Below, piece after piece: positions 19,832-37,789 of a DNA stretch of 56,571 nt. Position numbers and translations under genes: made by a program. The stretch spans positions 1-56,571 of the IMG/VR virus record IMGVR_UViG_3300018877_000056; one strand, 5' to 3'. This DNA comes from a virus. The notes under the pieces are model-generated. The model worked only from the letters and a program-made list of their open reading frames with translations. It ran no database searches and had not been told where the DNA came from. The stretch's first letter is position 1. The number at the start of each line of letters is the position of its first letter.

Positions 19832-19920
19832 GGGGGGAGGTCAAAAGTCCAGAGCCTTCCCACCATGGACCGGCGCCCTCAGTCAAATGCGAAATGCCGC
19901 AAGTTTTCAGAAAAAGTTCC
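19832..19920 (+). repeat. Repeat copy A, cos-like site of the helper phage
   Basis: A G-run (19832-19837) is followed 35 bp later by a ~40-bp sequence starting GGACCGGCGCCCTCAGTCAA (19867) and ending GCCGCAAGTTT. Near-identical copies occur at 24619 and 26917 inside the inserted element, also preceded by G-runs at 36-37 bp. Position between the HNH nuclease and small terminase is where cos/pac sites usually lie. Copies A and C also share AAAAAGTTCC after the core. Confidence 0.7.
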
Positions 19921-19921
19921 A

Positions 19922-20410: not shown

Positions 20411-21930
20411 CGGTTCCGAGCGGCGAGGGGGCAGGCGGCCCGTTCGTCCTCCGGGAATGGCAGAAACAGTTCATCCGGGACATCTACGAGCCGCACGCTC
20501 TCACCAAGGGGCAGTATCGGCGCCAGGTTAGACGGGCCATCCTCTCGATTGCCCGTAAGAACGGCAAGACGGCTCTGATTGCGGCTCTCGTGCTGGTCCA
20601 TCTGGTCGGGCCGGAAGCCATCCAGAACGGGGAGATCTACTCCGCGGCGAACGACCGGGAGCAGGCAGGACAGGTCTACAAGGTCGCCTCGCAGATCGTG
20701 AAGGCAGACCCGGAGCTTTCAACCATGCTCCGCTGCGTTGACTCAACGAAAACGATTGCCTGCTATAGCAATGGGTCATTCTACAAAGCCATTTCAGCAG
20801 AGGCGGGCACGAAACATGGCCTCAACCCGAGTTTCGTCATCTTTGACGAGCTGGCTCAAGCGAAAGATCGCGAACTTTACGACGTTCTTGATACTTCGAT
20901 GGGTGCTCGTGCGGAGCCGCTCTTTGTAACCATCTCGACGCAGAGCAACGACCCCGAGCACATCCTGTCGAAGCTCATTGACGACGGGCTGGGGGCGAAA
21001 GACCCGACTATCGTCTGCCATCTCTACGCTGTTCCTGAGGAGCAGGAGGACATCTTCGACCCGAAGTGCTGGAAGCTGGCGAACCCGGCTCTAGGCGACT
21101 TCCGCGACTTCGATGACCTGAAGGCTATTGCCGACAAGGCACGGCGAATGCCAGCCGAGGAGCCGAAGTTCCGCAACCTCTACCTCAACCAGCGCGTGGC
21201 GCCGGTCGCATCCCTCATCTCCCGAGCCGAATGGATGGCCTGCAAGGGCGAGGTTGAATTCGAAGATGGCGAGGAAGTCTATCTCGGCTTGGACCTGTCC
21301 TCGATCAACGATCTGACGGCCCTTGTGATGGTCAGCGCGAGCGACCCGAGCCGAGTACAACCCTTTCTCTGGAAGCCGAAAGACTTCCTCAAGGAGCATT
21401 CAAACCGGGACTTTGGCCGAGGCAACCACCGCTTTGTCGAGTGGCACAAGCAGGGGTACCTTCTGGCGACCCCAGGCCGCTCGATCGACAAGGAAGTGAT
21501 CGCCCGCCACATCGCAGACCTTTGCGGCCGCTACCGCGTCCTCGGCATGGCCTATGACCGCTGGCGGATTGACGACTTGATCAAGGAATTCGACCGCATC
21601 GACTTCGCCTCTCATAAAGATGGCGAGAAGGGCGATGGGTTGCGGATCATCCCCTGGGGCCAGGGCTTCAAGGACATGACGCCGGCCATTGACGCGATGG
21701 AACTGGCGGTGATCGACCGGAAGCTGGTCCACGACAACAACCCTGTCCTCAACTGGAACATGGCGAACGCCGTCGCGGTCACGGATCCGGCAGGCGGACG
21801 CAAGATCGACAAGAATAAGGCCCGGTTCCGCATTGACGGCGCGGTGGCGCTCACGATGGCGCTTGGGCTGAAGTCTCGTGACCGCAAGGACGAGCGAAAG
21901 CCCGACTACCAGATGTTCGTGCTGGGCTGA
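20242..21930 (+). CDS. Terminase large subunit
   Basis: DNA-packaging ATPase and nuclease, 562 aa from the first ATG; a GTG at about 20284 would shorten the overlap with the small subunit. Conserved core starts near RVIAFIEALTVPSG and FVLREWQKQFIRDIY. The ATPase P-loop variant is in ILSIARKNGKTALIAAL, Walker B in PSFVIFDELAQAKD, and the coupling motif near FVTISTQSNDP. The C-terminal nuclease has metal-binding acids in YLGLDLSSINDLTALV and near the end RIDGAVALTMALG. It would also have to package the nested element, which has no terminase. Confidence 0.95.
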   Translation: MVSHTEGHVRGNEIVGRPPRAGSKGKGRSATSRKQAKEQVRRPDRAARVIAFIEALTVPSGEGAGGPFVLREWQKQFIRDIYEPHALTKGQYRRQVRRAILSIARKNGKTALIAALVLVHLVGPEAIQNGEIYSAANDREQAGQVYKVASQIVKADPELSTMLRCVDSTKTIACYSNGSFYKAISAEAGTKHGLNPSFVIFDELAQAKDRELYDVLDTSMGARAEPLFVTISTQSNDPEHILSKLIDDGLGAKDPTIVCHLYAVPEEQEDIFDPKCWKLANPALGDFRDFDDLKAIADKARRMPAEEPKFRNLYLNQRVAPVASLISRAEWMACKGEVEFEDGEEVYLGLDLSSINDLTALVMVSASDPSRVQPFLWKPKDFLKEHSNRDFGRGNHRFVEWHKQGYLLATPGRSIDKEVIARHIADLCGRYRVLGMAYDRWRIDDLIKEFDRIDFASHKDGEKGDGLRIIPWGQGFKDMTPAIDAMELAVIDRKLVHDNNPVLNWNMANAVAVTDPAGGRKIDKNKARFRIDGAVALTMALGLKSRDRKDERKPDYQMFVLG

Positions 21931-22504
21931 GAAGGATCACAGAATGAACCGGATGTATTCGGTCCTCCACGTTAAGGCTGTGGAGGAGGAGCAGCGCATT
22001 ATCCGCGGCGTGGCCACGACACCCAATCCCGACCGGGTCGGGGACATCGTGGAGCCCTTGGGCGTCCAGTTCAAGAACCCGATGCCACTGCTGCACCAGC
22101 ACGACCACAATCGTCCTGTCGGCACTGTCACCTTTGACAGACCCACCAAGGACGGCATCACCTTCAAGGCGCGCCTCCCGAAGATCGAGGAACCTGGCCC
22201 ACTGCGTGACCGCGTGGAAACGGCTTGGGGCGAGATCAAGGCCGGTCTGGTCCGTGCCGTCTCCATCGGCTTCCGCGCTCTCGAATACGCCTTCCTGGAT
22301 GAAGGCGGGATCCGCTTCACCAAAAGCGAGGTCCTTGAACTCTCTCTCGTCTCCGTGCCGGCCAATGCCGACGCGGTGATCTCCACCATCAAGTCGATCG
22401 ACGCCCCCTTGCTCGCCGCGACCGGCAAAGAGCCCAAGGCGGATGATCGGCCTGTCCGCCCGGGCGCTGCCGGGAAAACCGTCAAATCCGTCAACTTGCG
22501 CCCG

Positions 22505-22522
22505 AAGGAGGGCACGAACATG
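22505..22522 (+). promoter_or_regulatory. Internal ribosome site for separate capsid translation
   Basis: AAGGAGG at 22505-22511 sits 8 nt before an in-frame ATG (22520-22522), at the junction of protease and capsid domains. The sequence after this ATG (MKTIAEQIAALEASRQAKSA) is a typical capsid delta-domain start. This would give both a protease-capsid fusion and a free capsid, about 464 aa in the intact gene. Confidence 0.65.
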
Positions 22523-23032
22523 AAGACCATTGCAGAACAGATTGCGGCGCTTGAGGCCTCTCGTCAGGCCAAGTCCGCGCGCATGGCCGAGGTCATGCAG
22601 AAGTCCATCGATGAGGGCCGTTCGACCGATCCGGCCGAGCAGGAGGAGTTCGACACCCTCGAGGGCGAGGTGGTCGCCATCGACGGCGACCTGAAGCGGC
22701 TCCGGGCCCTGGAGAAGGCCCAGGCCGCCTCTGCCAAGCCGGTTTCCGGCCAGAAGTCCGACGAAGGCACGGCTGCCCGCTCCCGCATTCAGGTCCAGCC
22801 CGTCGAGAAACTCGACAAGGGCATCGGCTTCGCCCGCCTGGCCAAGGTCAAGGCGATCGCGAAGCTGGATGGCGAGAGCGTCCGCACCGTGGCGAAGGAA
22901 CTGTATGGCGAGAACTCGTCCATCTACGGCCTGTTCGTCAAGGCCCCGGTCCCGGCCGGCACCACGCAGGACGGCAACTGGGCGGCTCCCCTCGTCGGCG
23001 AAGGCACCGATGTGATCGCCGACTTCGTGGAG

Positions 23033-23043
23033 TTCCTGCGGCC
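23033..23043 (+). other. Left attachment site core (attL)
   Basis: TTCCTGCGGCC, encoding F-L-R-P of the capsid. Identical to 33528-33538. Beyond the core the left end reads AAGAACA where the capsid has CCGCACC, so P-R-T is encoded on both sides with different codons. Confidence 0.85.
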
Positions 23044-23096
23044 AAGAACAGACATGCGCCTTGCGGCGTGAAATAAATCTAGAACATCAAAGACTT

Positions 23097-23119
23097 AGCC
23101 GCTCCCGAGCGGCTTTTTT
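23097..23119 (+). terminator. Rho-independent terminator at left end of inserted element
   Basis: AGCCGCT (23097-23103) and AGCGGCT (23108-23114) form a perfect 7-bp stem with a 4-nt loop, followed by six Ts. It lies 26 nt after the stop codon of the truncated capsid fusion, so transcription arriving from the terminase-protease genes should end here in the integrated state. Confidence 0.92.
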
Positions 23120-23129
23120 CATGTCTGCC

Positions 23130-23145
23130 GCTCGTTACAACGAGC
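23130..23145 (+). promoter_or_regulatory. Palindrome upstream of element's first gene
   Basis: GCTCGTT-AC-AACGAGC, a perfect 7-bp inverted repeat between the left terminator and the xis-like gene. A likely operator or recombination-factor binding site; no T-run follows. Confidence 0.5.
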
Positions 23146-23197
23146 ACCAACAGAATCAATGACTTAACAAGACGGCCCAACGCAATCCGGCACGTCC

Positions 23198-23206
23198 ACG
23201 CGACAA
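23198..23206 (+). repeat. Candidate integrase arm site, left
   Basis: ACGCGACAA, about 155 bp inside the left core. The same 9-mer occurs twice near the right core at 33473 and 33484, which suggests arm-type binding sites for the element's integrase. Confidence 0.4.
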
Positions 23207-23250
23207 CGACGCAACAACAAACTGAGAAAGCATGCGACATGGAGAGATAC

Positions 23251-23460
23251 ATGGAGACCCCTCTTAACAGCACCGATCTGCTGCATGGGATGGAGGCCAT
23301 CGCGGCCTTCCTCGGCATCAAGAAAAGGCAGGCACAGCACTGGGCTGACACGACCGACATGCCGACATTCAAGATCGGCCGGACCGTGTGCGCTCGCCGG
23401 TCGAGCCTCAAGGAATGGCTTGCCAAGCGTGAACGCGGGGAGGCAGCCAATGACCGATGA
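23251..23460 (+). CDS. AlpA/Xis-like protein of the inserted element
   Basis: About 69 aa from METPLNSTDLLHGMEAIAAF; an ATG 12 nt earlier is an alternative, but it forms part of the GGAGAG ribosome site. MerR/AlpA-type winged helix: MEAIAAFLGIKKRQAQHWAD, then MPTFKIGRTVCARRSSLKEW. First gene inside the left end, opposite the integrase at the right end. Likely excisionase and/or master regulator of the element. Confidence 0.8.
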   Translation: METPLNSTDLLHGMEAIAAFLGIKKRQAQHWADTTDMPTFKIGRTVCARRSSLKEWLAKRERGEAANDR

Positions 23461-23701
23461 CATCCTTGTCGCCACCATTCGCAAGAATTCCCGCGAGGAG
23501 ATCCGGGTCAGCCTGGGGGAGTATCAGGGCCATACCGTCGCGCACGCCCGTGTCTGGTTCAAGGCTGCCGATGGGACGATGCGTCCCTCTAGGTCGGGTC
23601 TCGCCTTCCGGGTGGACCTCCTGCCTGAGATTGCCCGCGCTCTGAGCGAGGCGAACGACCACGCTGAAAGTCTCGGCCTTGTCGCTCCCGCTCCCCGGTA
23701 A
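23450..23701 (+). CDS. PC4/p15-like ssDNA-binding protein
   Basis: An 83-aa protein overlapping the xis-like gene by 11 nt. The core EEIRVSLGEYQGHTVAHARV, then WFKAADGTMRPSRSGLAFRV and DLLPEIARALSEAND matches the transcriptional coactivator p15/PC4 fold (E-I-R-x-S-x-x-x-Y-x-G ... K/R-G-x-x). PC4-like proteins bind single-stranded or melted DNA; here it could aid replication or transcription of the element. Confidence 0.75.
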   Translation: MTDDILVATIRKNSREEIRVSLGEYQGHTVAHARVWFKAADGTMRPSRSGLAFRVDLLPEIARALSEANDHAESLGLVAPAPR

Positions 23702-23724
23702 GCCAGCGGCACCGGAGGCGCGGA

Positions 23725-24243
23725 ATGAGCGCAAAGAAACGACGCAACAGCATCGGGCAACAATTCATCGCCCATCGCCGCGATATGAGAGAGGCCCCGG
23801 CCTGGAGGCACCTGCCGGACAATGCCCGGCGCATCCTCGACCGGCTGGAGCTCGAACACATGAGGCATGGCAGCGCTGAGAATGGCCGGCTGCCCTGCAC
23901 CTATGCCGACTTCGAAAAGGCAGGCATCCGGCGCAAGTCGATTGCCCTGGCCATCCGGCAGTGTGTGGGTTTGGGCTTCCTTGAAGTCACAAGACAGGGT
24001 CGCCGATCCGTGGCCGAGTTCAGAACGCCCTCTCTCTACAGGCTTACTTATGTGCACGGGACCGGCCGCAGCCAGGCCCCGACCGACGAGTGGCAGAGGA
24101 TCAGCACGGATGAGCATGCGCTTGCTGTGCTGGAGGCTCTAAAGGCTGTACCCTCCCGAGATCTAGAAAGTAGGGGCAATAGCGCCCCTAGGACTGTAGG
24201 GGCGAAAACGACCCCGGCACATGGTCTCCATAAGGGGCGATAG
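23725..24243 (+). CDS. Replication-type winged-helix protein of the element
   Basis: A 172-aa protein: GQQFIAHRRDMREAPAWRHL, PDNARRILDRLELEHMRHGS, NGRLPCTYADFEKAGIRRKS and AIRQCVGLGFLEVTRQGRRS. The C-terminus has a charged tail. This pattern is common in Hyphomicrobiales mobile elements and has the look of a plasmid/phage RepA-like winged-helix initiator. A cluster of palindromes overlaps its last 24 codons, as origins often overlap initiator genes. Initiator function is inferred. Confidence 0.75.
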   Translation: MSAKKRRNSIGQQFIAHRRDMREAPAWRHLPDNARRILDRLELEHMRHGSAENGRLPCTYADFEKAGIRRKSIALAIRQCVGLGFLEVTRQGRRSVAEFRTPSLYRLTYVHGTGRSQAPTDEWQRISTDEHALAVLEALKAVPSRDLESRGNSAPRTVGAKTTPAHGLHKGR

Positions 24244-24282
24244 CGCCCCCGGATAAGGGGCGAAAACGCCCCCGGCTTTTTA
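24171..24282 (+). repeat. Palindrome cluster, putative element origin, ending in a terminator
   Basis: Two ~60-bp tandem units, each holding a GGGGC-RATAGC-GCCCC palindrome and a GGGGCG-AAAA-CG(A)CCCC palindrome. The last one (GGGGCG 24257-24262, CGCCCC 24267-24272) is followed by CCGGC and TTTTTT, so it can act as an intrinsic terminator. The first overlaps the 3' end of the replication-type gene. Origin iterons and/or terminator array are the two readings. Confidence 0.6.
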
Positions 24283-24300
24283 ATTTCAGCAGGTATCGAG

Positions 24301-24582
24301 ATGACACAGCAACGAGGCTCACGCCGCGAGGGCATCGCGCATGCCAAGCCGACGAGGCAATACGCATGGCAGATGCGAAACCCTGAGAAGCGCCGAGCCC
24401 ATCTTGCGGTTCAGCAGGCGTTGAGACGGGGCCAACTCGTGCGCCAACCATGCGCTGTTTGCGGGACCACTCAGAACGTGGATGCCCATCACGAAGATTA
24501 TCGAGCGGCGCTTGAGGTGAAATGGTTGTGCCGACGCCATCACAAGCAGAGGCACCGACAGATGAGGTGCGAGGGTGGGTGA
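24301..24582 (+). CDS. HNH-like zinc protein of the element
   Basis: A 93-aa protein with a treble-clef HNH-like core: QPCAVCGTTQNVDAHHEDYR, then VKWLCRRHHKQRH. The Cys pairs (CAVC and C..HH) and His residues are present; the N-terminus (YAWQMRNPEKRRAHLAVQQA) is basic. Like the helper's HNH gene it stands directly before a copy of the cos-like repeat, so it may act at that site. Confidence 0.8.
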   Translation: MTQQRGSRREGIAHAKPTRQYAWQMRNPEKRRAHLAVQQALRRGQLVRQPCAVCGTTQNVDAHHEDYRAALEVKWLCRRHHKQRHRQMRCEGG

Positions 24583-24660
24583 GGGGCGGTGTCTCTCTGC
24601 TCCCACTCCTGAGGTCCCGGACCGGCGCCCTCAGTCAAACGCGAAATGCCGCAAGTTTCC
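24583..24660 (+). repeat. Repeat copy B, cos-like
   Basis: A short G-run (24583-24586), then 36 bp later GGACCGGCGCCCTCAGTCAA (24619) to GCCGCAAGTTTCC. The core differs from copy A by a single base over 40 (AAT to AAC). After the core a second G-run (GGGGGG) follows. The 24661-24854 stretch has no convincing gene; it holds the perfect palindrome GGACCG-G-CGGTCC at 24802-24814. Confidence 0.7.
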
Positions 24661-24854
24661 ATAGGGGGGAGCCTCCAGGCTCAAAGACCCTTAGGCCGGA
24701 ACCGGTGATCGGCCCAAACTTCTCGTTTTTGCAGATTGATGTACTGCGACGTGAATTCTGCAACGAGGGGGGCACGGTCGAAATCTCGGCCGCCCAATCC
24801 CGGACCGGCGGTCCAAGCTTTCCTTTCCAAAACCTGTAGAAAAAAGATTTCAGG

Positions 24855-25220
24855 ATGGATGAAACGAACACCCTCCTGCGAGCCTTGATTGCTGAGGTGA
24901 AGGGGCTCCGAGCCGATCTGGCACGGCAGACAGGGGCAGAAGACCCAGCCTCAACCCTCGGGGATCTGGTGGAGGCTATCGCCTTCACCGTAGGGGATCG
25001 CGTGTTTACTGCTCCAGAACTCGCAAAGTTTGCAGAGGCAGCACCTCCCGAAAAGCTGCAGATCGCACTCCATGCAGCGGGCGGCACGAACCCTCGCAAA
25101 GTCGGGAAACTATTGCGCCGCATGGAAAAGCAGGAGTGCGGCGGCTGGCGTGTAGTTCAAATCGGCAGCGACCGCGACGGGCTGCTCTGGAAAGTACAGC
25201 CTGCAAGTTTGGCCCGCTGA
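24855..25220 (+). CDS. Hypothetical regulator-like protein of the element
   Basis: A 121-aa protein: helical N-terminus MDETNTLLRALIAEVKGLRA, then TLGDLVEAIAFTVGDRVFTA, PELAKFAEAAPPEKLQIALH, NPRKVGKLLRRMEKQECGGW and VVQIGSDRDGLLWKV. The second half looks like a winged-helix domain (AAGGTNPRKVGKLLRRME) as in small proteins found in Hyphomicrobiales elements. It lies between copy B and the capsid gene and may regulate the structural genes. Confidence 0.7.
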   Translation: MDETNTLLRALIAEVKGLRADLARQTGAEDPASTLGDLVEAIAFTVGDRVFTAPELAKFAEAAPPEKLQIALHAAGGTNPRKVGKLLRRMEKQECGGWRVVQIGSDRDGLLWKVQPASLAR

Positions 25221-25300
25221 AACTCGCAAACTCGCACAGTCGATTGAGACGGCGAAAGTACACCCTCAATATACCCTCAGAAATCCACGACCAAAGGAAC

Positions 25301-26368
25301 ATGACCTTGGACCGTCTCGCCAGTCTTACCAGCCAATACGAGTCCCATTCGAAGGCGATGGCCTTCATTCAGTTCGCCATTACCAAGGCGATAGCACGAG
25401 ACCAGAGTGTAGACCCGCTGGAATTGTTTCAGGCGCGGTATCCGCATTCCAAGCATCTCGCCGCGATCCAGAAGGCCGCTGTCTCAGCCGGATCGACGGA
25501 CAACTGGGGCGCTCCTCTTGTCCCCCTGCCGGGCTATGCCTCAGAGTTCTTGGAGCTGGTAAGGCCTGCGAGTGTCGTAGGCCGGATGCGCGGTTTCCGC
25601 CGCGTCCCATTCCGGGTGAAGTTCACCAGGCAGACCTCCGGAGCGACGGCGGGCTGGGTTGGCGAGTTCAAGCCCATCCCGGTCGGCAAGCTCGATATGA
25701 GCACGGAGACTTTCGAGCATTCGAAGGTTGCTGGCATCATCGTCATTTCCAAGGAATTGGCCCGCTCCGCCGATCCGGCTGCCGAGCCCCTGATCCAGCG
25801 GGATATCGTGGCGGCCGTCGCCAAGTTCACGGACGAGCAATTCCTTGACCCTGCGGTGGCAGAGACGGGCGTACACCCGGCCTCCGTCACCCACGGTGCA
25901 ACGGAGGTGGTATCCAGCGGCAACGGCGCCGATGCAATTGCCGCCGATCTTAAGGCACTTGTGGCTGCTGTTGTCGGATCAGGTGCGCTGCTCACCGCAC
26001 CGTATTTCGTCATGAAGCCCTCGACGGCTCTTCACCTTGCGACCCTTGAGGGGACGAACGGTAAGGTTTTCCCGAACGTCAATGTCATGGGCGGTGACAT
26101 CTGGGGCATTCCGGTCCTCGTCTCTGGTAATGCGGGCGATCAGATCACGCTAGTTGACGCAGCCGAGCTGATGCTTGCCGACGGCGATGTTCAGTTGGAC
26201 ACGGCCGAGGAAGCAGCCCTCCAAATGGACGATGCGCCAGCCGATGGCGCGGTTCAGTTGGTCAGTCTGTTCCAGACCAACAGCATTGCCATCCGGGCCA
26301 TCCGCACAATCCGGTGGCGCATGCGCAACCCCGGCGCCGTCGCCTACCTCTCTGGCGTGACCTACTGA
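25301..26368 (+). CDS. HK97-fold major capsid protein of the element
   Basis: A 355-aa capsid protein without protease or long delta domain, started at MTLDRLASLTSQ with AAAGGA upstream. Core: NWGAPLVPLPGYASEFLELV (the same 'N-W-x-A-P-L' entry as the helper), VVGRMRGFRRVPFRVKFTRQ, GWVGEFKPIPVGKLDMSTET, VIVISKELARS-like strand, then GDIWGIPVLVSGN and VQLVSLFQTNSIAIRAIRTI. It aligns by eye along its length with the helper's capsid (GYWVGEGKAKPLTRF; TSLVSMFQTNSVAFRVERFI) but is clearly diverged. It could build its own shell, co-assemble with, or interfere with the helper's capsid. Confidence 0.92.
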   Translation: MTLDRLASLTSQYESHSKAMAFIQFAITKAIARDQSVDPLELFQARYPHSKHLAAIQKAAVSAGSTDNWGAPLVPLPGYASEFLELVRPASVVGRMRGFRRVPFRVKFTRQTSGATAGWVGEFKPIPVGKLDMSTETFEHSKVAGIIVISKELARSADPAAEPLIQRDIVAAVAKFTDEQFLDPAVAETGVHPASVTHGATEVVSSGNGADAIAADLKALVAAVVGSGALLTAPYFVMKPSTALHLATLEGTNGKVFPNVNVMGGDIWGIPVLVSGNAGDQITLVDAAELMLADGDVQLDTAEEAALQMDDAPADGAVQLVSLFQTNSIAIRAIRTIRWRMRNPGAVAYLSGVTY

Positions 26369-26378
26369 GGGCCCCGCC

Positions 26379-26591
26379 ATGGATGACGAGGCCTGGAACA
26401 AGAAGCTCGTTGAAGCCGCCGATGGCGCGATGGACGGTGGCGGCAAGAGCCTGGGCGAACGCTTCGGCGCGATGCTTGCCGCATGCGTCAGAACCGTTCG
26501 GGACGAGATGCGGGAGAAGCACCGCAAGACAGACGAGCGCCTCACCGCCATCGAGGAGCATCTGACAGCCATACGAGAGGGCAGGGAATGA
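26379..26591 (+). CDS. Small coiled-coil protein
   Basis: A 70-aa charged protein (SLGERFGAMLAACVRTVRDE ... KTDERLTAIEEHLTAIREGR) with a C-terminal coiled coil. It follows the capsid gene closely and overlaps the next gene by 4 nt. Possibly a scaffold or size-determination factor given its place, but nothing specific is visible. Confidence 0.6.
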   Translation: MDDEAWNKKLVEAADGAMDGGGKSLGERFGAMLAACVRTVRDEMREKHRKTDERLTAIEEHLTAIREGRE

Positions 26592-26815
26592 CCACGTTCA
26601 AGATCAAGTCCTTTGCTGACCTCGAGGCCTGCTTCGATGAGATCGCAGAAGGGAAGCTGCAGGACACGGCACGACTCCTCTCCCGCAAGGGCGCGACTGA
26701 TGAGGAGATCGAGGCCGAGCTAGCCCATCAGCGAGCGGCGATGGCAGCATCCAGGGCTCAGTTCATGGAACAGGCCAAGGGCTTTATCCAGCGCGGTGGA
26801 GAGAGCCTCCAGTGA
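26588..26815 (+). CDS. Small hypothetical structural-module protein
   Basis: A 75-aa protein starting MTTFKIKSFADLEACFDEIA, with GATDEEIEAELAHQRAAMAA. Helical and acidic. Forms a pair with the preceding gene (4-nt overlap) immediately downstream of capsid. Function unknown. Confidence 0.6.
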   Translation: MTTFKIKSFADLEACFDEIAEGKLQDTARLLSRKGATDEEIEAELAHQRAAMAASRAQFMEQAKGFIQRGGESLQ

Positions 26816-26879
26816 GATTGCTGTGCCCTCCCTTCGCAGCAAGCGGTCGGCTCCTGAAGCGCCAGGGCCGACCGCACCC

Positions 26880-26970
26880 GGGGGGGTATTTGCCAGCTTT
26901 GGAAAGAACGGATCGTGGACCGGCGCCCTCAATCAAACGCGCGATGCCGCAAATTTCAGTAAAAAGTTCC
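26880..26970 (+). repeat. Repeat copy C, cos-like
   Basis: A G-run (26880-26886) and 37 bp later GGACCGGCGCCCTCAATCAA (26917) to GCCGCAAATTT. Like copy A, the core is followed by AAAAAGTTCC. With copy B it flanks a 2.3-kb segment carrying the capsid gene. Confidence 0.7.
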
Positions 26971-26980
26971 GATCAACCCC

Positions 26981-27229
26981 ATGGATGAAACCCAAACTCG
27001 CCAATGTGGCGCAAGAACCCGCTCAGGAGAGCCGTGCAGGCGATCTCCGGCCCCCGGCAAGCGCAGATGCCGGCTCCATGGTGGCGCTCCTGGCAGCGGG
27101 GCTCCTACAGGCGAGCGCAACGGTGCATGGAAGGGCGGACGATACAGCAGGGCGATCACGCCCGAACAGAGACACCTGGCCTGGAAGGAATATTGGGCCG
27201 AGAAGAGGGCTAAGAGACATGGCAACTGA
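26981..27229 (+). CDS. Small basic HGG-motif protein
   Basis: An 82-aa basic protein: TRQCGARTRSGEPCRRSPAP, GKRRCRLHGGAPGSGAPTGE, RNGAWKGGRYSRAITPEQRH. The C-x-A-x-T-R-x-G-x-P-C...C-x-x-H-G-G signature is a widespread phage/mobile-element motif ('HGGxxGSGAP') that probably binds zinc. It is placed right after repeat copy C. Function unknown. Confidence 0.8.
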   Translation: MDETQTRQCGARTRSGEPCRRSPAPGKRRCRLHGGAPGSGAPTGERNGAWKGGRYSRAITPEQRHLAWKEYWAEKRAKRHGN

Positions 27230-27452
27230 AGTGATCGAGGCAGACCCCCACGACGTGGTGGCACAATATGCCCTTGAACGGCTCATGGAGATGGTGAGCG
27301 ACACGCCTATCCCGTCCCGTGCTTTGGCAATCGCCATGATTGCCAACGGTGGCGGCGCTATTGCCGCCCTCGATGGTCGTGAGGCGGCTGCGCAACTCCT
27401 TCGGGACGCTGCAGACCGGATCGAGAACCCCGAACTAGCCGGGAGAGCATGA
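27219..27452 (+). CDS. Small hypothetical protein
   Basis: A 77-aa protein (MATEVIEADPHDVVAQYALE ... AAAQLLRDAADRIENPELAG), helical, overlapping the previous gene by 11 nt and the next by 4 nt. No motif recognised. Confidence 0.65.
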   Translation: MATEVIEADPHDVVAQYALERLMEMVSDTPIPSRALAIAMIANGGGAIAALDGREAAAQLLRDAADRIENPELAGRA

Positions 27453-27826
27453 CGATGAGCAGGAAACTCCATTACGTGATGTCAACATTCGGTGGCGAGC
27501 CAGCAATGTTCTGCCTCACCCGCCGCAGGCTCGAAATCTTCGAAGTAGGCCTTGAGGCCGGAAGCGCATTCGAGTTCCTCCGTAGGCTCCTGAACGGCAC
27601 CTGGGCAACGAGGGATCTCGTCAGCCTCCTTCAGGACGCTTACCGCGAACACGACGGGAACGTGAACCTCAAGGCGCATTCCCACGTGCGAGCCGTGATC
27701 GAGAAGAACGGTCCCGGGCACTATGTCGGCTTGGCCGCCAAAATCATCGAAGCCGCTCTCTTCGGAATACCAGAGAAGGATGCAGTCTTTGATGAGGCCA
27801 AGCAGCTCACAGGAGAGGCAGGTTGA
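27449..27826 (+). CDS. GTA-like tail assembly chaperone of the element
   Basis: A 125-aa protein resembling the 'gene transfer agent family' tail chaperone: MFCLTRRRLEIFEVGLEAGS, AFEFLRRLLNGTWATRDLVS and LLQDAYREH, then VGLAAKIIEAALFGI. It corresponds in pattern and position to the helper's 39694-40095 protein (FRLAIGQLRELQEKTG, DGSWMVDDAREVMRLGLI). Such chaperones coat the tape measure during tail assembly. It lies two genes upstream of the element's own tape measure. Confidence 0.7.
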   Translation: MTMSRKLHYVMSTFGGEPAMFCLTRRRLEIFEVGLEAGSAFEFLRRLLNGTWATRDLVSLLQDAYREHDGNVNLKAHSHVRAVIEKNGPGHYVGLAAKIIEAALFGIPEKDAVFDEAKQLTGEAG

Positions 27827-28269
27827 GCCAGGGCCTGAAGCGCTGGGAGCAGAGGCTAAAGAACATACCGAAGACGGTACGGGCGCGAGTGCGTGAAGCC
27901 ATTCACCAGGGAGCGGCTGAAATCGTTTCGGCTCAGAAGCGCTTGGCGCCAGTCAGGACCGGCAAACTGCGAGACAGTATCACGGCCACCATTGGCGGGC
28001 AGGCTCCAAAATACTCCCAGTTCGGCCGCATGGGCGGCAAGGGTGACGCCGATCTCACAGCAGTCATCACGGTCGGCAACTCCGAGGTTCGATATGCGCA
28101 CCTCGTGGAGTTCGGTTCCGCTCCGCATATCGCAGGCGGTAGGTTCAAGGGGGCGGACCATCCCGGCACGACCGCACAGCCCTTTTTCTATCCCGGCTAT
28201 CGCATGGTGCGGCGACGGGTGAAGAGCCGCATTACCCGCGCCGTCAACAAGGGCATCAAGGAGGCCTGA
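27823..28269 (+). CDS. HK97 gp10-like head-tail joining protein of the element
   Basis: A 148-aa protein with a TTG start overlapping the previous stop (TTGA). HK97-gp10 features: AAEIVSAQKRLAPVRTGKLR, DSITATIGGQAP, YAHLVEFGSAPHIAGGRFKG and a C-terminus HPGTTAQPFFYPGYRMVRRR. That ending is nearly the same as the helper's (HPGATPQPFFFPGWRATRKR), so the two probably dock to the same partner. It would connect head completion proteins to the tail. Confidence 0.88.
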   Translation: MSQGLKRWEQRLKNIPKTVRARVREAIHQGAAEIVSAQKRLAPVRTGKLRDSITATIGGQAPKYSQFGRMGGKGDADLTAVITVGNSEVRYAHLVEFGSAPHIAGGRFKGADHPGTTAQPFFYPGYRMVRRRVKSRITRAVNKGIKEA

Positions 28270-28272
28270 GCC

Positions 28273-30300
28273 ATGGCAGTTGAACGCGATGCAATGATCG
28301 TCTCGGTTGAGGCGCGCATCAACAATATCGAGCGTCAAATGGCGAAGGCCTCAGCCACATCGCGGAAGCATTTCACGCGGATCGAGTCCGATGCAAAGAC
28401 CATGGCGAGCCGGGTAAATGCCACTATGGGCAAAGTCGGGGAGGGGCTGAAAACAGCCTTCGTAGGGTTCGCCGGTGGTCTTGTTGGGGGGCTTGCTGCC
28501 GGAGGTGTTCTAGGAGTCCTCGGAAGCGTCCAGGGAGCCATGTCTGAATTGGCGAACGTGGCGGCTGAGGCCAAGCGGGCGGGTCTAGGCGGAGAAGCCT
28601 TCCAGGAATTGAGTTATGCCGCCATGCAGAGCCGGGTGAGCATTGACGCTCTGACGGACGGCCTCAAGGAGATGCAGCTCCGGGCGGATGAATTCATCGT
28701 CACGGGCAAGGGCAGCGGCGAGGAAGCCTTTAAGCGCCTCGGCTACTCGGCAACCGAACTGAATGAGAAGCTGAAGGACCCGCCAAAGCTGTTCGAAGAG
28801 ATCATCGACAAGCTAGGGCAACTCGATAAGTCGTCACAGATCCGCATTGCCGATGAGATCTTCGGCGGTGAGGGTGGCGAGCAGTTTGTGCGCTTTCTGG
28901 ACAAGGGGGCGGGTGCAATCGCCCGGGCGCGCCAGGAGGCAAGGGACACCGGCAATGTCCTTAGTGAGGATATGCTGAAGAAGGCCGTCGAGATCGATCA
29001 GCAGTTCGAGACCATAGCCCGCACCATCGGAACCAATGTCAAGGGCGCAATTGTCAGCGTGGTGTCCGCTCTAAAGGAGTTCGTGGGCGAGGCGAGCATG
29101 CTCAACAGCAGGAGCATTGAGGCAGTCTCCGACAGGATCAGCAAGATCAAGACAGAAATGGAAAGCCTGCAGAAGATCGAGGCTGATGCACGGCGAATGT
29201 TCCCGAACGCTCTCGAAAGCGCCTTCGCAGGCAATGCAGACAAACTGAAAGCCTACCGCGACGAGCTGGGCAAGCTCGAGGAACACCTGGGGCGACTCAA
29301 GACGAGCGCCCCGACCTCTCCGGGAGAGGCCCCGCCGACAACGCCGGCAGGCGGCAAGGGAGATCTGAGCCAAATCGACGTTGCCGGTAGCAAAAAGAAG
29401 GCACTGGAGGGCTATGCCGCGCTCGAACAAGCGGCCCTAGCTCGCATCAATACTCTGCGGGTGGAGCAGCAGGCTCTCGGCCTCACGACGGGAGAGGCTG
29501 AAAAGCTCCGGTTTGAGCAACAACTCCTGGCTGAAGCAACGCGAGACGGGACGATACTTACCCAGACACAAAAGGATCGTATCTCGGAGCTCGCGGGGCA
29601 GTACGGAGCACTTACGGCAGCAATTGAGCAAACTGAGAAGGCACAGCAGGAAGCTAATCAGGCTGCGGAATATTTCGGGGATGTGGCCGTTGATGCTATA
29701 TCCGATCTGGCCTTAGAGGGGCGCAATCTCGATGACGTGCTGCAGAACATCGCGAAGAGCCTCGCCCAGGCAGCAATTCAAGCCGCCATCCTCGGCCAAG
29801 GGCCTCTTGCCGGTCTCCTCGGGACGAGTGGCGTGAATGGTGCGCCTGGGGGCATCATTGGCGCATTGCTAAAATCATTCTCTCCGGTCAAAGCGGCTAC
29901 AGGCGGTTACATTAGAGGGAGAGGCACAGGAACGAGCGACAGCATTCCGGCCCGTCTCAGCAATGGCGAATATGTCGTGAATGCCAGAGCGACAGCTGCC
30001 AATCGAAAGCTGCTGGACGCAATCAACTATGGGCGTGTGCCGCGCTTCGCTGAGGGGGGATTTGTGGGCGTGCCGACCGTGCCGACACCTATTGCGCGCG
30101 GAAGTGGCGGCGGGATGAAAACAGAGGTCCACATCCACGAAGCCCAGGGAGTGAAGACCACCGTTAAAGAGACGCGTGGACCTAGTGGTGTGCGGTTCGA
30201 TGTGTATGCCCGTCAACTCGTTGAGGGCATGGTGGCAGACGGTAGCCTAGATCGGGTTGCAAAAGGCCGCTGGGGGGTGAATCCCATGCGGGGACGTTAG
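28273..30300 (+). CDS. Tail tape measure protein of the element
   Basis: A 675-aa tape-measure-like protein: charged coiled-coil N-terminus (VEARINNIERQMAKASATSR), a Gly-rich hydrophobic hairpin at about residues 60-85 (FVGFAGGLVGGLAAGGVLGV), long helical middle, then LGQGPLAGLLGTSGVNGAPG and a C-terminal domain ending MVADGSLDRVAKGRWGVNPM. The helper's tape measure is 670 aa and ends MIADGSLDKHLKGRFGVSPM, so length and C-terminus match while the first two thirds differ. Expected tails would be the same length as the helper's. Confidence 0.9.
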   Translation: MAVERDAMIVSVEARINNIERQMAKASATSRKHFTRIESDAKTMASRVNATMGKVGEGLKTAFVGFAGGLVGGLAAGGVLGVLGSVQGAMSELANVAAEAKRAGLGGEAFQELSYAAMQSRVSIDALTDGLKEMQLRADEFIVTGKGSGEEAFKRLGYSATELNEKLKDPPKLFEEIIDKLGQLDKSSQIRIADEIFGGEGGEQFVRFLDKGAGAIARARQEARDTGNVLSEDMLKKAVEIDQQFETIARTIGTNVKGAIVSVVSALKEFVGEASMLNSRSIEAVSDRISKIKTEMESLQKIEADARRMFPNALESAFAGNADKLKAYRDELGKLEEHLGRLKTSAPTSPGEAPPTTPAGGKGDLSQIDVAGSKKKALEGYAALEQAALARINTLRVEQQALGLTTGEAEKLRFEQQLLAEATRDGTILTQTQKDRISELAGQYGALTAAIEQTEKAQQEANQAAEYFGDVAVDAISDLALEGRNLDDVLQNIAKSLAQAAIQAAILGQGPLAGLLGTSGVNGAPGGIIGALLKSFSPVKAATGGYIRGRGTGTSDSIPARLSNGEYVVNARATAANRKLLDAINYGRVPRFAEGGFVGVPTVPTPIARGSGGGMKTEVHIHEAQGVKTTVKETRGPSGVRFDVYARQLVEGMVADGSLDRVAKGRWGVNPMRGR

Positions 30301-30304
30301 GACC

Positions 30305-30619
30305 TTACCGTGTTGTCTCTGGCGTCCCGGCGAGATCATCCAGAAACGAGCTATAGGGGAGACGTGCCAGGATAGTGCCCCTTGATGCCACCATCGCCGC
30401 AGTTGTGCCGCGGCAAAGCAGAGTCACATTGCCGGTGGTTCGCTTGCAGAAGGCGTCAGGGCTGTCGATGAAGTTCAAGCCAGACGGCCCCATAACAATG
30501 GCGGTTACGCCGTCCGGGATTGCACCGATCGGTTTGATGACGAACACCCGTAGCCCCGCAAGGTAGGCAATGAAAACTAGGGCGGCCAACCCGAACGAAA
30601 CTAGGAATAAAGCTCTCAT
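30305..30619 (-). CDS. Membrane-anchored cargo protein
   Basis: A 104-aa protein from MRALFLVSFGLAALVFIAYL: an N-terminal hydrophobic anchor or signal, then a soluble part (VFVIKPIGAIPDGVTAIVMG, FIDSPDAFCKRTTGNVTLLC) with two Cys that could pair outside the membrane. Reversed relative to the element's structural genes, so probably expressed in the lysogen. Function unknown; a superinfection-exclusion role would fit. Confidence 0.65.
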   Translation of the reverse strand: MRALFLVSFGLAALVFIAYLAGLRVFVIKPIGAIPDGVTAIVMGPSGLNFIDSPDAFCKRTTGNVTLLCRGTTAAMVASRGTILARLPYSSFLDDLAGTPETTR

Positions 30620-30668
30620 CAACTCACGATGGCACAGGCTGGGCGCAGTTCGCAAGGCTAGTAAATTC

Positions 30669-31262
30669 TTAAGCGGCCCACCAAGATAGCAAAGCGAGAG
30701 CGCCCCTGACGCCCCAGTAAACCAGCGTAAACACCCCAACCAGCATACTCAATCCGATAATGATATTGATCGAGCGCGGGAAGATGCGATTGGGGGCAAC
30801 ACGAATATGCTTGCCCTGTGCTCCATCGAAACGAACGTTTACCAAGTGGGGCATATCATTGTTCAGATGGAGCAAATAGAGATTGAAGCTTTCTTTTGGG
30901 TTTAACCGTTCGACCTCAATAATTAATCGCTCATCAGGATTGTCTCTGATGACAAAGGGGAGTGGAGGAGAGAGCTCCAAATGGTAGGGCCGGAAGTTGA
31001 ATATAATCTCTACATTATTGGCTGTTTGCCTACCTGCGTTGGTAAAAAAGAGCGTTTGTGTTCTAACGGGAGAGTATTTTCCTTCTCCGTCTTTGGGTAG
31101 GAGGTATGCCGACTGTAATTCTGAGTAATGTAGTTTGGGTTTGGCCGCAAAGAACCCAAGGATCAGCGATCCTAAGCCCGTCAAAAGTGTCGTAATGATA
31201 CCAGCTGTTATTTCTTTATTATTATTTGCGAACTCTAATACTGCGGCAAACATTGCTTCCAC
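30669..31262 (-). CDS. Two-helix membrane protein, cargo gene
   Basis: A 197-aa protein with one hydrophobic helix near the N-terminus (ITAGIITTLLTGLGSLILGF), a central beta-rich domain (TQTLFFTNAGRQTANNVEII, LPFVIRDNPDERLIIEVERL) and a second helix at the C-terminus (INIIIGLSMLVGVFTLVYWG). The bases are visibly AT-richer than the flanking genes, a sign of recent acquisition. Reversed orientation and position between tape measure and integrase mark it as a moron/defence candidate. Confidence 0.75.
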   Translation of the reverse strand: MEAMFAAVLEFANNNKEITAGIITTLLTGLGSLILGFFAAKPKLHYSELQSAYLLPKDGEGKYSPVRTQTLFFTNAGRQTANNVEIIFNFRPYHLELSPPLPFVIRDNPDERLIIEVERLNPKESFNLYLLHLNNDMPHLVNVRFDGAQGKHIRVAPNRIFPRSINIIIGLSMLVGVFTLVYWGVRGALALLSWWAA

Positions 31263-31357
31263 GAAGTCCAGCTAAGCTACTTTAAGCAATGAGTGGACTT
31301 GATCGTAGCTGAAGAGTCAATGCTGTTGGGACGTGTCAGCGCGCGCGAAAACCCCTT

Positions 31358-31690
31358 CCGCCTTGCCGGGCGGTGGGTTCGCGTGTCATATTTGTAATTG
31401 GAGCGTAGCAACTCCCGAAGCGGGCCCTTGCCGGGGCTGGCGCTTCAGTCACAGAGCGGTGGCGATCCCTTGCCGGGGATAGGCCATCGAAAGCAAACGC
31501 GCTTCACCTAGTGAAGCGTGACCGGCTCACTATGCCGGGAGTCCATCCGTTATACAAGACCCTTTCGAGGGGAAGACGGTTGGGCGTGCTCTCTGTGGCG
31601 CGTTGCTACCCTCCCGGTGCCAGTGACGACCGCTGGCAACTGGAGACAAACCCGTAGCAAGGCGAGTCTCCCCGGCCGTAGCAAGCCGGT
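31358..31690 (+). ncRNA. Candidate structured RNA region with TTGCCG-loop hairpins
   Basis: Three hairpins share the loop TTGCCG but have different, compensating stems: CCGCC/GGCGG (31358-31373), GCCC/GGGC (31424-31437) and ATCCC/GGGAT (31465-31480). The second is enclosed by GAAGCG/CGCTTC (31417-31422, 31441-31446), the third by TGGC/GCCA. A perfect GCTTCAC-CTA-GTGAAGC hairpin follows (31501-31517). GTAGCAA occurs at 31405, 31654 and 31678, and its complement TTGCTAC at 31603. No convincing protein is encoded here (31263-31707). Family unknown. Confidence 0.55.
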
Positions 31691-31707
31691 TCTCCACAGA
31701 GTAACCC

Positions 31708-32154
31708 ATGACTTCACAATTCTACGCCCGCAGTGGGCCAATAGCGTCTCCGGCTATCGATCCGGAGCGCACGCGTCTCCGCGCCTTGAGAGCTGAGATT
31801 GAGCGAGAGTTAGAGCGGATGATTGATCTGCTCGACGCCATCGACGGCGACCCGGACTTTGAACCTTCCTTTGGCTCGGTTGCCCCGGGACACGTTGACG
31901 AGGCTGAACCCGACGCAGACCTTGAACCTTCCCTCGGCTGGACGAGCACCTATGCCCATGGCTCCGATCAGGACCTTGAGGAGGAGCATGACGGTCGGGA
32001 GCCCGATGAGGATTTCGAGGGCAACACCGATGACAACGGCATAGGCGACCGTGGCGGGCTTGATGAGCAGTACGGCATTGATGCGACTGTGACCCGCTTC
32101 CCGCTCTACGGAACGATTGACGGCACCGCTCACATCATCCCTGAAACGTACTGA
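31708..32154 (+). CDS. Acidic hypothetical protein
   Basis: A 148-aa, strongly acidic protein. The N-terminus has a helix (RLRALRAEIERELERMIDLL) leading into AIDGDPDFEPSFGS and a Glu/Asp-rich low-complexity region (LEEEHDGREPDEDFEGNTDD). The D-G-D-P-D-x-E-P-S-F/L-G-S motif, repeated as LEPSLGW, is common in Hyphomicrobiales hypothetical proteins. It follows the structured non-coding region, which may be its leader. Function unknown; the charge would suit a DNA mimic. Confidence 0.75.
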   Translation: MTSQFYARSGPIASPAIDPERTRLRALRAEIERELERMIDLLDAIDGDPDFEPSFGSVAPGHVDEAEPDADLEPSLGWTSTYAHGSDQDLEEEHDGREPDEDFEGNTDDNGIGDRGGLDEQYGIDATVTRFPLYGTIDGTAHIIPETY

Positions 32155-32161
32155 TCCAAAC

Positions 32162-32192
32162 GGCCCGGCTGCATTCCGTGGCCGGGCCTCTT
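32162..32192 (+). terminator. Rho-independent terminator before integrase
   Basis: GGCCCGGC (32162-32169) pairs with GCCGGGCC (32181-32188), followed by TCTTTT. It separates the acidic-protein gene from the integrase gene of the element. Confidence 0.8.
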
Positions 32193-32211
32193 TTCATGAA
32201 AGGAGAGCAAC

Positions 32212-33519
32212 GTGGCAAGCGTGAACAAAAGAGAGTGGACCTATAAGGGCGAGACAAAAACCGCCTGGGTGGTTCGGTATACGGACCAAGGCGGCAAGCG
32301 TCGAATGAAGACTTTCGAGAAGAAGAAGGAGGCGGATGCTTTCCGGGTTCAAGTAGAAAGCGAGATCACGCAGGGAGTGCATACCGCCTACAACGAGAGC
32401 GTGACCTTCGACAAGGCGGTCGATGAGTTTATAAAGGACTGCTATCGGCGGGAGAAGCTAGGGGACATAACGCTAAGTGGCGTGAAGGGCTACGAGTATC
32501 GGCTTGAACATTACACAGTCCCCAAGTTCGCTAAGCGTCGTGTCTCCACGATCACGGCGGCAGAAATCCAAACCTATGTAGAGGAACTGCGCGAGAAGCT
32601 GTCCCCCCATACCATCCATGGGATCTATGGCTCGCTGCATGTGCTGCTGACCTTTGCCGTGTCCAAGAAGTGGGTTCGCCGGAATGTGCTGCGAGACGAG
32701 CCCTGCAAGCTGCCGACCAAGCCGAAGCGCAAGTCGATCCCGACCAAGGACGACATAAGGGCGCTCCTAGAGGCTGCTTCTCGCCTCGACAAGGGAGAGA
32801 ACCTCCTGACGTTCGTAAACCGCTCTGTGGTCATTGCCTGCGGCGTCTTCTGCGGTTTCCGTCCAGGGGAGACCTTTGGCCTGCATTGGGAGGACATCGA
32901 CTGGGAAAGGGGAGTGATCCATGTTCGCCGTGCGCACTCGAAGGTGAACGGGCTGAAAACGCCCAAGACCGAGGCGGGCTTCCGTGACGTGCCGCTCACC
33001 GAGCCTGTGCGCCGTGCTCTCTATCAGGCCGCGCGCTATTGGATCATCAGGAGGATGGCGACGGAGACAGGCGGAAGACGAGGCTCTATGAACCCGAAGG
33101 CTATTTTCAGCCGCATCGCCCGCATGTGGGAAACAGAGGTGGTTCACGTCGATCCGACGCAACTTAAGGGCTTCGTGATCCTGACGAAGGTGGGCAAACC
33201 CATGTCGGCAACAGCCAGCGCGACGACGTTCTGGAAGCGCCTTATGGATGCGGCCGGACTGTACGATCACGAGGCCAAGAGAAACAAGTTCACGCCTCAC
33301 GCCCTGCGGCATGTGGCAGCCAGTCTGCTAATCGAAGCGGGGCTCGATGACATGAACCTAAAGCGCTTCATCGGGCATGCCTCGATCCAGACAACCAAGG
33401 ACATCTACGGTCATCTTTTCCCGACCGATCAGCGCATGGTTGCGACAACAGAGGCCGTTGCGGCGAGCCTAGACGCGACAAGAACGCGACAAATCGCTGT
33501 AAGGCATTCATTCAACTAA
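32212..33519 (+). CDS. Tyrosine integrase of the inserted element
   Basis: A 435-aa tyrosine recombinase with a GTG start preceded by AAAGGAGAG (32199-32207). N-terminal arm-binding part (YKGETKTAWVVRYTDQGGKR), core-binding domain (DKAVDEFIKDCYRREKLGDI) and catalytic domain with Arg in VFCGFRPGETFGLHW, H-x-x-R in FTPHALRHVAASL, then FIGHASIQTT and the nucleophile Tyr in KDIYGHLFP. It ends 8 nt before the right core site, the standard place for an integrase next to its att site. It is unrelated in detail to the prophage integrase at the left of the window. Confidence 0.95.
   Translation: MASVNKREWTYKGETKTAWVVRYTDQGGKRRMKTFEKKKEADAFRVQVESEITQGVHTAYNESVTFDKAVDEFIKDCYRREKLGDITLSGVKGYEYRLEHYTVPKFAKRRVSTITAAEIQTYVEELREKLSPHTIHGIYGSLHVLLTFAVSKKWVRRNVLRDEPCKLPTKPKRKSIPTKDDIRALLEAASRLDKGENLLTFVNRSVVIACGVFCGFRPGETFGLHWEDIDWERGVIHVRRAHSKVNGLKTPKTEAGFRDVPLTEPVRRALYQAARYWIIRRMATETGGRRGSMNPKAIFSRIARMWETEVVHVDPTQLKGFVILTKVGKPMSATASATTFWKRLMDAAGLYDHEAKRNKFTPHALRHVAASLLIEAGLDDMNLKRFIGHASIQTTKDIYGHLFPTDQRMVATTEAVAASLDATRTRQIAVRHSFN
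33473..33492 (+). repeat. Candidate integrase arm sites, right
   Basis: ACGCGACAA at 33473-33481 and 33484-33492, start-to-start spacing 11 bp, inside the 3' end of the integrase gene. The same 9-mer lies near the left end at 23198. Confidence 0.4.
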
Positions 33520-33527
33520 CAAAAATA

Positions 33528-33538
33528 TTCCTGCGGCC
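33528..33538 (+). other. Right attachment site core (attR)
   Basis: TTCCTGCGGCC, identical to the left core and in the same capsid reading frame. From here rightward the capsid gene continues unbroken. Confidence 0.85.
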
Positions 33539-34409
33539 CCGCACCATCCTCGGCCGGTTCGGCCAGAACGGCATCCCGTCCCTCCGGAACGTGCCCTTCA
33601 ATGTGCCGCTGGTCGGCCAGACCGAAGGCGGCGAGGGCTACTGGGTGGGTGAAGGCAAGGCGAAGCCGCTGACCCGGTTCGGCTATGAGCGCAACATCCT
33701 TGAGATCTTCAAGGTGGCGAACATTGCTGTGGTCACGGAAGAGCTTCTGCGTCGGTCCAACCCGGCCGCCGAGGCGCTGCTCCGCGACAACCTGGCTGCG
33801 GCAATCGCTGCGCGCCTCGACATCGACTTCATCAACCCGGCCAAGGCTCTGGTCGCCGGCGTCTCGCCTGCCTCGATCACCAACGGCTTGACCCCGGTCA
33901 CGTCGTCCGGTGGCGATGCCGACGCGATCCGCGCCGACATCCGCGCCCTGATGGCGACCTTCATCGCGGCGAACAACGCCCCGACGAACGGCGTCTGGAT
34001 CATGGGCTCGGCGACTGCTCTCGCTCTGTCGATGATGGTCAACCCGCTCGGCCAGGCCGAATTCCCGGGCATCACGATGAATGGCGGCACCTTCGCAGGC
34101 CTGCCGGTGATCGTGTCCGACTACATCCCCGCGGGGACGGTCGTCCTGGCCAACGCCAGCGACATCTATCTGGCCGACGAAGGCGGCGTTCAGGTGGATA
34201 TGTCCCGCGAGGCCTCGCTGGAGATGGCGGACAACCCGGCGCATGACTCAAGCACACCGACCGGCGCCACGTCGCTCGTGTCGATGTTCCAGACCAACTC
34301 GGTAGCGTTCCGCGTCGAGCGGTTCATCAACTGGGCTCGTCGCCGTCCGTCGGCTGTCGCGATCCTGACCGGCGCGACCTGGGGCGCTCCTGCTGCCGAG
34401 ACTCCCTAA
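33528..34409 (+). pseudogene. Major capsid protein, 3' part separated by insertion
   Basis: A 293-codon open frame starting within the att core (FLRPRTILGRFGQNGIPSLR) with no native start. It supplies the bulk of the HK97 capsid core: GYWVGEGKAKPLTRFGYERN, IAVVTEELLRRSNPAAEALL, NGGTFAGLPVIVSDYIPAGT and a C-terminal strand TSLVSMFQTNSVAFRVERFI. An internal ATG at 33591 would give only a fragment. Joined to the 5' part after excision it completes the 656-aa fusion. The sequence is intact, which argues for recent or reversible insertion. Confidence 0.92.
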
Positions 34410-34429
34410 TCGGTAGCCTGAACCTCACG

Positions 34430-34460
34430 CCCGGCCGCGATCCGTTGCGGCCGGGTTTTT
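34430..34460 (+). terminator. Rho-independent terminator after capsid gene
   Basis: CCCGGCCGC (34430-34438) pairs with GCGGCCGGG (34447-34455), 8-nt loop, then TTTTT. It would attenuate late transcription after the highly expressed capsid and is another point where antitermination would matter. Confidence 0.9.
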
Positions 34461-34474
34461 CATAGGAGGCCAAT

Positions 34475-34708: not shown

Positions 34709-34711
34709 TCC

Positions 34712-36939: not shown

Positions 36940-36940
36940 A

Positions 36941-37240: not shown

Positions 37241-37257
37241 AGCAGAGAGCTGATTGG

Positions 37258-37760: not shown

Positions 37761-37789
37761 AACCTTAGCCGTTGAATCGTGGCCATATT

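Follow-up and report, generated by a model that had tools for sequence, protein, structure and literature searches.

A probable capsid-encoding satellite embedded in the major capsid gene of its proposed helper prophage

We analysed a stretch of viral DNA of 56,571 nt, IMG/VR record IMGVR_UViG_3300018877_000056, which we refer to as the window and in whose positions coordinates are given unless another record is named. Within it, the capsid gene of a prophage is split by a 10,495-bp element at 23044-33538 that carries a tyrosine integrase and is bounded by an 11-bp direct repeat. We consider it probable, at about 85%, that this element is a capsid-encoding satellite embedded in the capsid gene of its helper prophage, which would leave by means of its integrase and an AlpA-like excisionase and be packaged by the helper terminase. 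The sequence basis of this reading consists of the integration, the restoration of the frame, a family of insertion sites, a relative that appears as a closed circle, the duplication of capsid genes, and patches shared with the region ahead of the helper terminase.

The element splits the capsid gene, and its removal restores the frame

The features that define the insertion are as follows.

21944..23043, plus strand: helper protease-capsid gene, left part, with the entire protease region and the N-terminal part of the capsid (PHROG 617 profile positions 5-370; PHROG 80 head maturation protease)
23033..23043, plus strand: attL core TTCCTGCGGCC, in the capsid frame (F-L-R-P), an exact pair with attR
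33528..33538, plus strand: attR core TTCCTGCGGCC, 8 nt past the integrase stop
33539..34409, plus strand: helper capsid gene, right part (Pfam Phage_capsid; PHROG 617 profile positions 385-626)

The first-pass annotation of this DNA had proposed a 10.5-kb element in the capsid gene, with 11-bp repeats at both ends and an integrase gene that stops 8 nt before the right copy, and all of this held: an exact match count gave two copies of TTCCTGCGGCC and no others across the window, one at 23033-23043 and one at 33528-33538. Its further claim that precise removal restores a 656-aa frame was also borne out. When one repeat and the interior were deleted in silico, an open frame of 656 aa resulted from the ATG at 21944, with ADFVEFLRP joined to RTILGRFGQN at the junction. 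The joined protein matched PHROG 617 (protease-major head protein) in a single stretch of 585.8 bits, residues 2-648 aligning to profile positions 10-626, which exceeds the sum of the scores of the separate halves (279.9 and 263.7 bits). Uninterrupted homologues of the 656-aa protein occur in dozens of other phages, the nearest with 95% identity over 1-656; the same residues are continuous across the site, and EFLRPRTILGRFG is unbroken in the DNA. The 10.5 kb was not found as ordinary late genes in related phages, the observation which that annotation had named as arguing against integration.

The att core differs between intact capsid genes (TTCCTGCGGCC in seven, TTCCTGCGTCC in eight, TTCCTCCGCCC in five, TTCCTTCGCCC in two and TTCCTCCGGCC in one), and the core of every capsid-targeting element is an allele present among them. 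As a check on self-integration, the matching place in the element's own capsid gene was inspected; it reads TTCTTGGAGCTGGTAAGGCC, not the 11-bp core. Since the left half retains the whole protease region, only the capsid body is severed. Both the stop codon of the truncated left half and an intrinsic terminator (23097-23114) come from the element.

The ends share an att-site architecture with related elements

Four features lie just inside the two ends of the element.

23097..23114, plus strand: intrinsic terminator just inside the left end, at an equivalent place in 8 of 8 elements
23154..23166, plus strand: IHF-like site AATCAATGACTTA, a consensus match only
23200..23217, plus strand: left doubled arm-type site GCGACAACGACGCAACAA, a GCGACAA pair
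33475..33492, plus strand: right doubled arm-type site GCGACAAGAACGCGACAA, a GCGACAA pair

The left-end terminator lies 42-54 nt inside the crossover in all eight elements with a mapped left end, compared with 10 of 420 random 140-mers. Doubled GCGACAA motifs spaced by 11 bp were present at the left end at +144 to +156 in six of the eight elements and at the right end at -49 to -58 in seven, and an IHF consensus match fell at +100 to +110 in five. The window contains the arm pattern twice, against an expectation of 0.04.

Related integrases target several late genes

Three further phages carry a related integrase at the same capsid site. The joined capsid genes are open and full length in G001, G002 and G004, and a related integrase is followed by an in-frame capsid right half in L003/L044 (Microvirga lupini, 89%), L005 (67%) and L054 (70%). 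Other members of the family lie in other late genes. The Walker A motif of the terminase large subunit (TerL) is the target in G003, where the joined TerL is open, and in G006, for which the contig yielded no left half. GpA-type TerL genes appear to be the target in L045 (Azospirillum), L047 (Methylobacterium soli) and L051, as named by eye from the reading frame on the right side only. The G009 element occupies the 3' end of TerL and restores that end; in G007 the insertion is in the N-terminus of tail-tip J, and in G408 it is in the portal. Late-gene targeting is not universal in the integrase clade, since the elements of L048 and L052 lie at tRNA-like sites. Integrase matches in public phages were all below 60% identity, with the best rows at about 25%, and among 397 genomes of a single order two distant matches turned up. 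The assignment of alphaproteobacterial hosts, from soil and plants, rests on relatives with a named host.

One pair of genomes is especially close. The helpers of G408 and the window are nearly the same, with 97% identity in TerL and mostly 94-100% in the tail genes; their head modules differ. The G408 satellite is a sister of the window's element (94% for a 172-aa protein and 99% for a 148-aa protein) and lies in the portal gene, with core TTCTTCGGTGT. The two integrases are only 33% identical.

A relative also seems to exist free of any helper. The ends of a 10,756-bp metagenome contig (L055/G005) overlap by 56 exact bases, and its integrase frame is continuous across the join. The join runs from the integrase end to the left end through a single core that matches the predicted attP, which supports regarding G005 as the probable closed circle of a relative. 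Together with the three phages that have a related element at the same site and the abundance of intact capsid genes, this circle bears out the first-pass reading of the segment as an integrated element.

Two Phage_capsid genes were present in six of the eight composite records inspected (G001, G002, G004, G006, G007 and G009), and a single one in the free circle G005. For the major capsid protein group, we rejected a recent origin of element capsids by copying from the present helper, since this group branches apart from helper capsids; in the same tree, in which three helper rows are shorter than full length, the element capsids of G009 and G006 do pair with those of their own helpers.

These data also bear on an alternative in which the element is a regulatory excision switch, domesticated by the phage and serving the timing of the helper rather than its own spread. 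The skin and SPbeta elements are insertions in host genes that can be likened to such a switch. An essential late gene is interrupted here, the att site brings no replacement sequence, and excision would restore the frame exactly, all as a switch would require. Most relatives of the helper, however, lack the element; the family hits many target genes, a free circle exists, a sister occupies another site in a near-identical helper, and the element has a capsid gene and cos-like patches of its own. We regard a domesticated switch as unlikely.

Some relatives carry further genes worth recording. In the 65,315-bp record of G007, the relative in tail-tip J (about 27,594-44,785 in the orientation used here) is 17 kb long and has its own portal, protease, capsid and TerL genes, resembling a capsid-forming phage-inducible chromosomal island (cfPICI). 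The G002 element has a gene for an Ant-like anti-repressor (PHROG 63, 31802-32959), with a 68% identical relative in G007 (27890-29053), which could act on helper induction. An acetyltransferase-like cargo gene (PHROG 1758) is common to the elements of G004 (13845-14387) and G009 (40912-41442).

The element carries cos-like patches of more than one phage type

Short patches inside the element match sequences found ahead of terminase genes.

19866..19923, plus strand: helper cos-like patch abutting the start of the terminase small subunit (TerS) gene, repeated in the element
24616..24661, plus strand: cos-like patch A, matching the element's own helper at 19867-19909 (95% over 43 bp)
24716..24765, plus strand: cos-like patch B, of the type of the Microvirga phage G001, also in L168 and L169
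24802..24857, plus strand: cos-like patch C, of the type of phages L150 and L161 (86-87% identical)
26916..26973, plus strand: second copy of patch A, just before the ATG at 26981, with a match to the helper patch

The 43-58-bp helper patch, just before the TerS start, thus has two repeats within the element. Overall, three mutually unrelated pre-terminase patches stand in one element and match different phage groups, with A being that of its own helper. In ordinary phages, patch types A, B and C all lie a few hundred bases upstream of TerL, and a reversed-sequence control against these phages gave no match at E 1e-4. Sharing of a patch between the element and its own helper was found in the window (G000), G001, G002, G003 and G408. 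When patches were cross-compared, the scores were 32-65 against the own helper and at most 19 against other helpers, for each element. The G001 element has a second patch, of the type of the G007 helper. A DNA search for the cos-like array in public phage genomes gave no match. In scans for exact cos patterns, type A matched two other contigs, and type B matched none but the Microvirga phage itself.

Directly after the second copy of patch A lies an 82-aa protein (26981-27229) with weak likeness to a terminase small subunit family (PHROG 1889, 9e-4).

The element encodes part of a virion

Genes and signals in the interior of the element are listed below.

23239..23460, plus strand: AlpA-like HTH_17 protein, probable excisionase or regulator (Pfam HTH_17 at 1.3e-5, just under the cut-off; PHROG 66 excisionase at 2.5e-4; no Phage_AlpA match)
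23725..24243, plus strand: conserved 172-aa protein, possibly a replication initiator or regulator (92-94% identical in G001 and G408; no Pfam or PHROG family match)
24855..25220, plus strand: conserved small gene, with the cos-like patches on its left and the capsid gene on its right (72% identity to its G001 counterpart)
25301..26368, plus strand: the element's own major capsid protein, without a protease domain (Pfam Phage_capsid at 4.6e-15; PHROG 617)
27449..27826, plus strand: GTA-gp10-like tail protein (Pfam match to Phage_TAC_11)
27823..28269, plus strand: HK97 gp10-like neck or tail completion protein (Pfam and PHROG matches)
28273..30300, plus strand: tape measure protein, 675 aa (PHROG 10574 at 2.4e-119)
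31708..32154, plus strand: conserved 148-aa protein ahead of the integrase (99% identical in G408, 76% in G001)
32162..32188, plus strand: intrinsic terminator directly ahead of the integrase
32212..33519, plus strand: tyrosine integrase (Pfam Phage_integrase at 5.7e-23)

Searches of 23044-33538 with Pfam and PHROG found no terminase large subunit, portal, protease, major tail protein or tail tip. Capsid, neck, chaperone and tape measure, the structural genes that are present, determine how head and tail are built. This would suit a morphology switch, in which a cassette supplied by the helper exchanges the capsid and tape measure of the virion and is no independent satellite. We consider such a cassette very improbable, given that the element has its own attP, integrase and cos-like patches, that a relative forms a free circle, and that the elements of G001 and G002 have no detected tape measure.

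It may also be asked whether the element is a defective prophage, or the remnant of one, that integrated into another prophage by chance. Phage late genes without an identified replication or lysis module could be read in this way. On the other hand, several members are built alike, with an HTH protein and a terminator at the left end, an integrase at the right end, and arm sites; late genes are targeted repeatedly, and the patches match the local helper. A remnant therefore seems an improbable explanation.

Several minor features were noted in this region. The strong terminator at 32162-32188 lies 24 nt before the integrase start and occurs in some relatives too, so that integrase expression may need antitermination; it was dropped as a general feature of the family, not being in all members. 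Two minus-strand frames without a Pfam match (30305-30739 and 30669-31262) lie in the cargo region of the element. Stretches 82-84% identical to the distal tail region of the helper occur in the G001 element (28616-28773 and 29398-29564) and in the G002 element (36237-36757, within a tail-fibre-like gene). An Rfam scan of the window gave no matches.

Proposed life cycle

We infer excision and induction here, recognition by the terminase and the make-up of the particle as follows. The satellite would insert into the major capsid gene of the helper prophage by its own tyrosine integrase. In the integrated state, the capsid body is split from the protease half and the late transcript would be ended by the satellite's terminator; from the split gene and the terminator, we propose that the helper is unable to make capsid as long as the satellite is integrated. 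Upon induction, the integrase and the AlpA-like excisionase would recombine the two 11-bp cores, which would repair the capsid gene of the helper and release the satellite as a circle. The helper terminase would then recognise the cos-like patch of the satellite and package it. The resulting particle may combine the capsid, neck, chaperone and tape measure of the satellite with the protease, portal, major tail protein and tail tip of the helper.

Several points weigh against this proposal. Tandem copies could also produce the terminal overlap of G005. That the element depends on the surrounding phage as its helper is something we infer from its position and the shared patches. We use the name cos on the basis of place and matching, because the cleavage site was not located, and the patches overlap open frames in some phages. 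At the thresholds used, G004 and G009 have no patch in common with their own helpers, and the shared patch of G007 was not counted as cos, sitting in an HNH-like coding sequence. Finally, no replication protein or repressor was confidently identified in the window's element, and Pfam and PHROG searches found no primase or lysis module.

Comparison with known satellites

The closest parallel comes from enterobacteria, where Tommasini, Mageeney and Williams described helper-embedded phage-inducible chromosomal islands (HE-PICIs) in 2023, some of which lie in capsid gene E and carry their own capsid gene (PMC10111431). Excision of HE-PICIs was measured in E. coli after mitomycin C, and the type element is Eco567.11capE (11capE) of E. 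coli NRG857c (PMC10111431). The suggestion in the first-pass annotation that a satellite in its helper's capsid gene might be an undescribed form of parasitism is therefore not upheld. Three things are absent from that annotation: the element's own capsid gene, its cos-like patches and the further genes targeted by the family.

The window's element resembles 11capE in its size of about 10-11 kb, its place inside the capsid gene of a helper prophage, the lack of replacement sequence, its own capsid gene, a cos-region patch in common with the helper, and an integrase family that targets several late genes. A further candidate likeness is AlpA/HTH_17. For the AlpA-family regulator typical of gram-negative PICIs, the window's candidate is the HTH_17 protein at the left end, just under the Pfam cut-off, with a PHROG 66 excisionase match but none to Phage_AlpA. 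Two traits of HE-PICIs seem to be present: embedding in a late gene that excision is predicted to restore, and carriage of the helper cos region, for which patch A (95% over 43 bp) is the candidate. By contrast, the 11capE integrase groups with that of P4 (100/98), apart from the 16-row clade of the window's integrase, and joining it to that clade was rejected (approximately unbiased test, p-AU 0.013). The doubled attP motif of HE-PICIs, TGTATTGC, had no match in the window at up to three mismatches; a GCGACAA pair is there instead. 11capE has an Arm-DNA-bind_3 integrase at the left end reading inward, followed by AlpA, primase and SSB, and the zones of HE-PICIs run in the order Integration (int, AlpA), Bro, Replication (primase), Late. 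The window's element departs from this order: its AlpA-like gene stands at the left end, its integrase gene reads outward to attR from the right end, and neither primase nor Bro was matched. The helpers are of HK97 type in the window's set and lambdoid for HE-PICIs, and the named hosts are Alphaproteobacteria and Enterobacteriaceae, respectively. Overall, the element would appear to work like an HE-PICI while differing in the features tested, namely integrase lineage, attP motif, gene order and primase.

Two other kinds of satellite were compared. The cfPICIs encode a complete capsid and packaging set and take only the tails of the helper. The window's element would likewise combine a satellite-encoded capsid with helper tails, and the G007 element even has terminase, portal, protease and capsid genes. 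Unlike cfPICIs, the window's element has no TerL, portal or protease of its own by Pfam and PHROG, and it sits inside the helper. P4-like satellites share with it a size of about 10-11 kb, a tyrosine integrase, doubled arm-type att sites and, on its candidate HTH_17 protein, probably an AlpA-like regulator, whereas no Sid/Psu/Delta or alpha primase was found in the window's element and its integrase is distant.

We give roughly even odds to the view that these elements represent a second origin of helper-embedded satellites, an independent lineage in Alphaproteobacteria in which cos arrays from several phages are kept side by side. If so, a single satellite could use two or more helpers for packaging, and an exchange of integrase and target gene could let it track helper lineages. 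Embedding in helper late genes would then have evolved more than once, suggesting a recurrent strategy and not an enterobacterial peculiarity. A literature search of incomplete coverage found no further study of helper-embedded satellites and none for Alphaproteobacteria. The most novel observations are the three unrelated cos-like patches in one element and the presence of a sister satellite in the portal of a helper nearly identical to the window's (TerL 97%). The cos-like arrays make it directly testable how a satellite changes or broadens the range of its helpers. The window and G408, with nearly the same helper, sister satellites and different integrases and targets, amount to a natural experiment on attachment-site change.

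The helper phage

The following helper genes complete the picture.

1..1062, minus strand: helper's own integrase, partial at the window end (PHROG 1)
19922..20410, plus strand: terminase small subunit (Pfam Terminase_4)
20242..21930, plus strand: terminase large subunit (Pfam TerL_ATPase and TerL_nuclease)
34712..36085, plus strand: portal (PHROG 2271)

The surrounding phage encodes TerL, portal, protease, major tail protein, tail tip, a CI-like repressor and its own integrase. Its TerL shares 42% identity with TerL of HK75 and HK542, which we take to be cos phages, and a prophage with an HK97-type head and a cos-type terminase is the best explanation for the helper. The helper also contains an 18-bp near-identical direct repeat, GGCGGTGTCCATAARTCG, at 499-516 and 17608-17625, with one copy inside its integrase gene.

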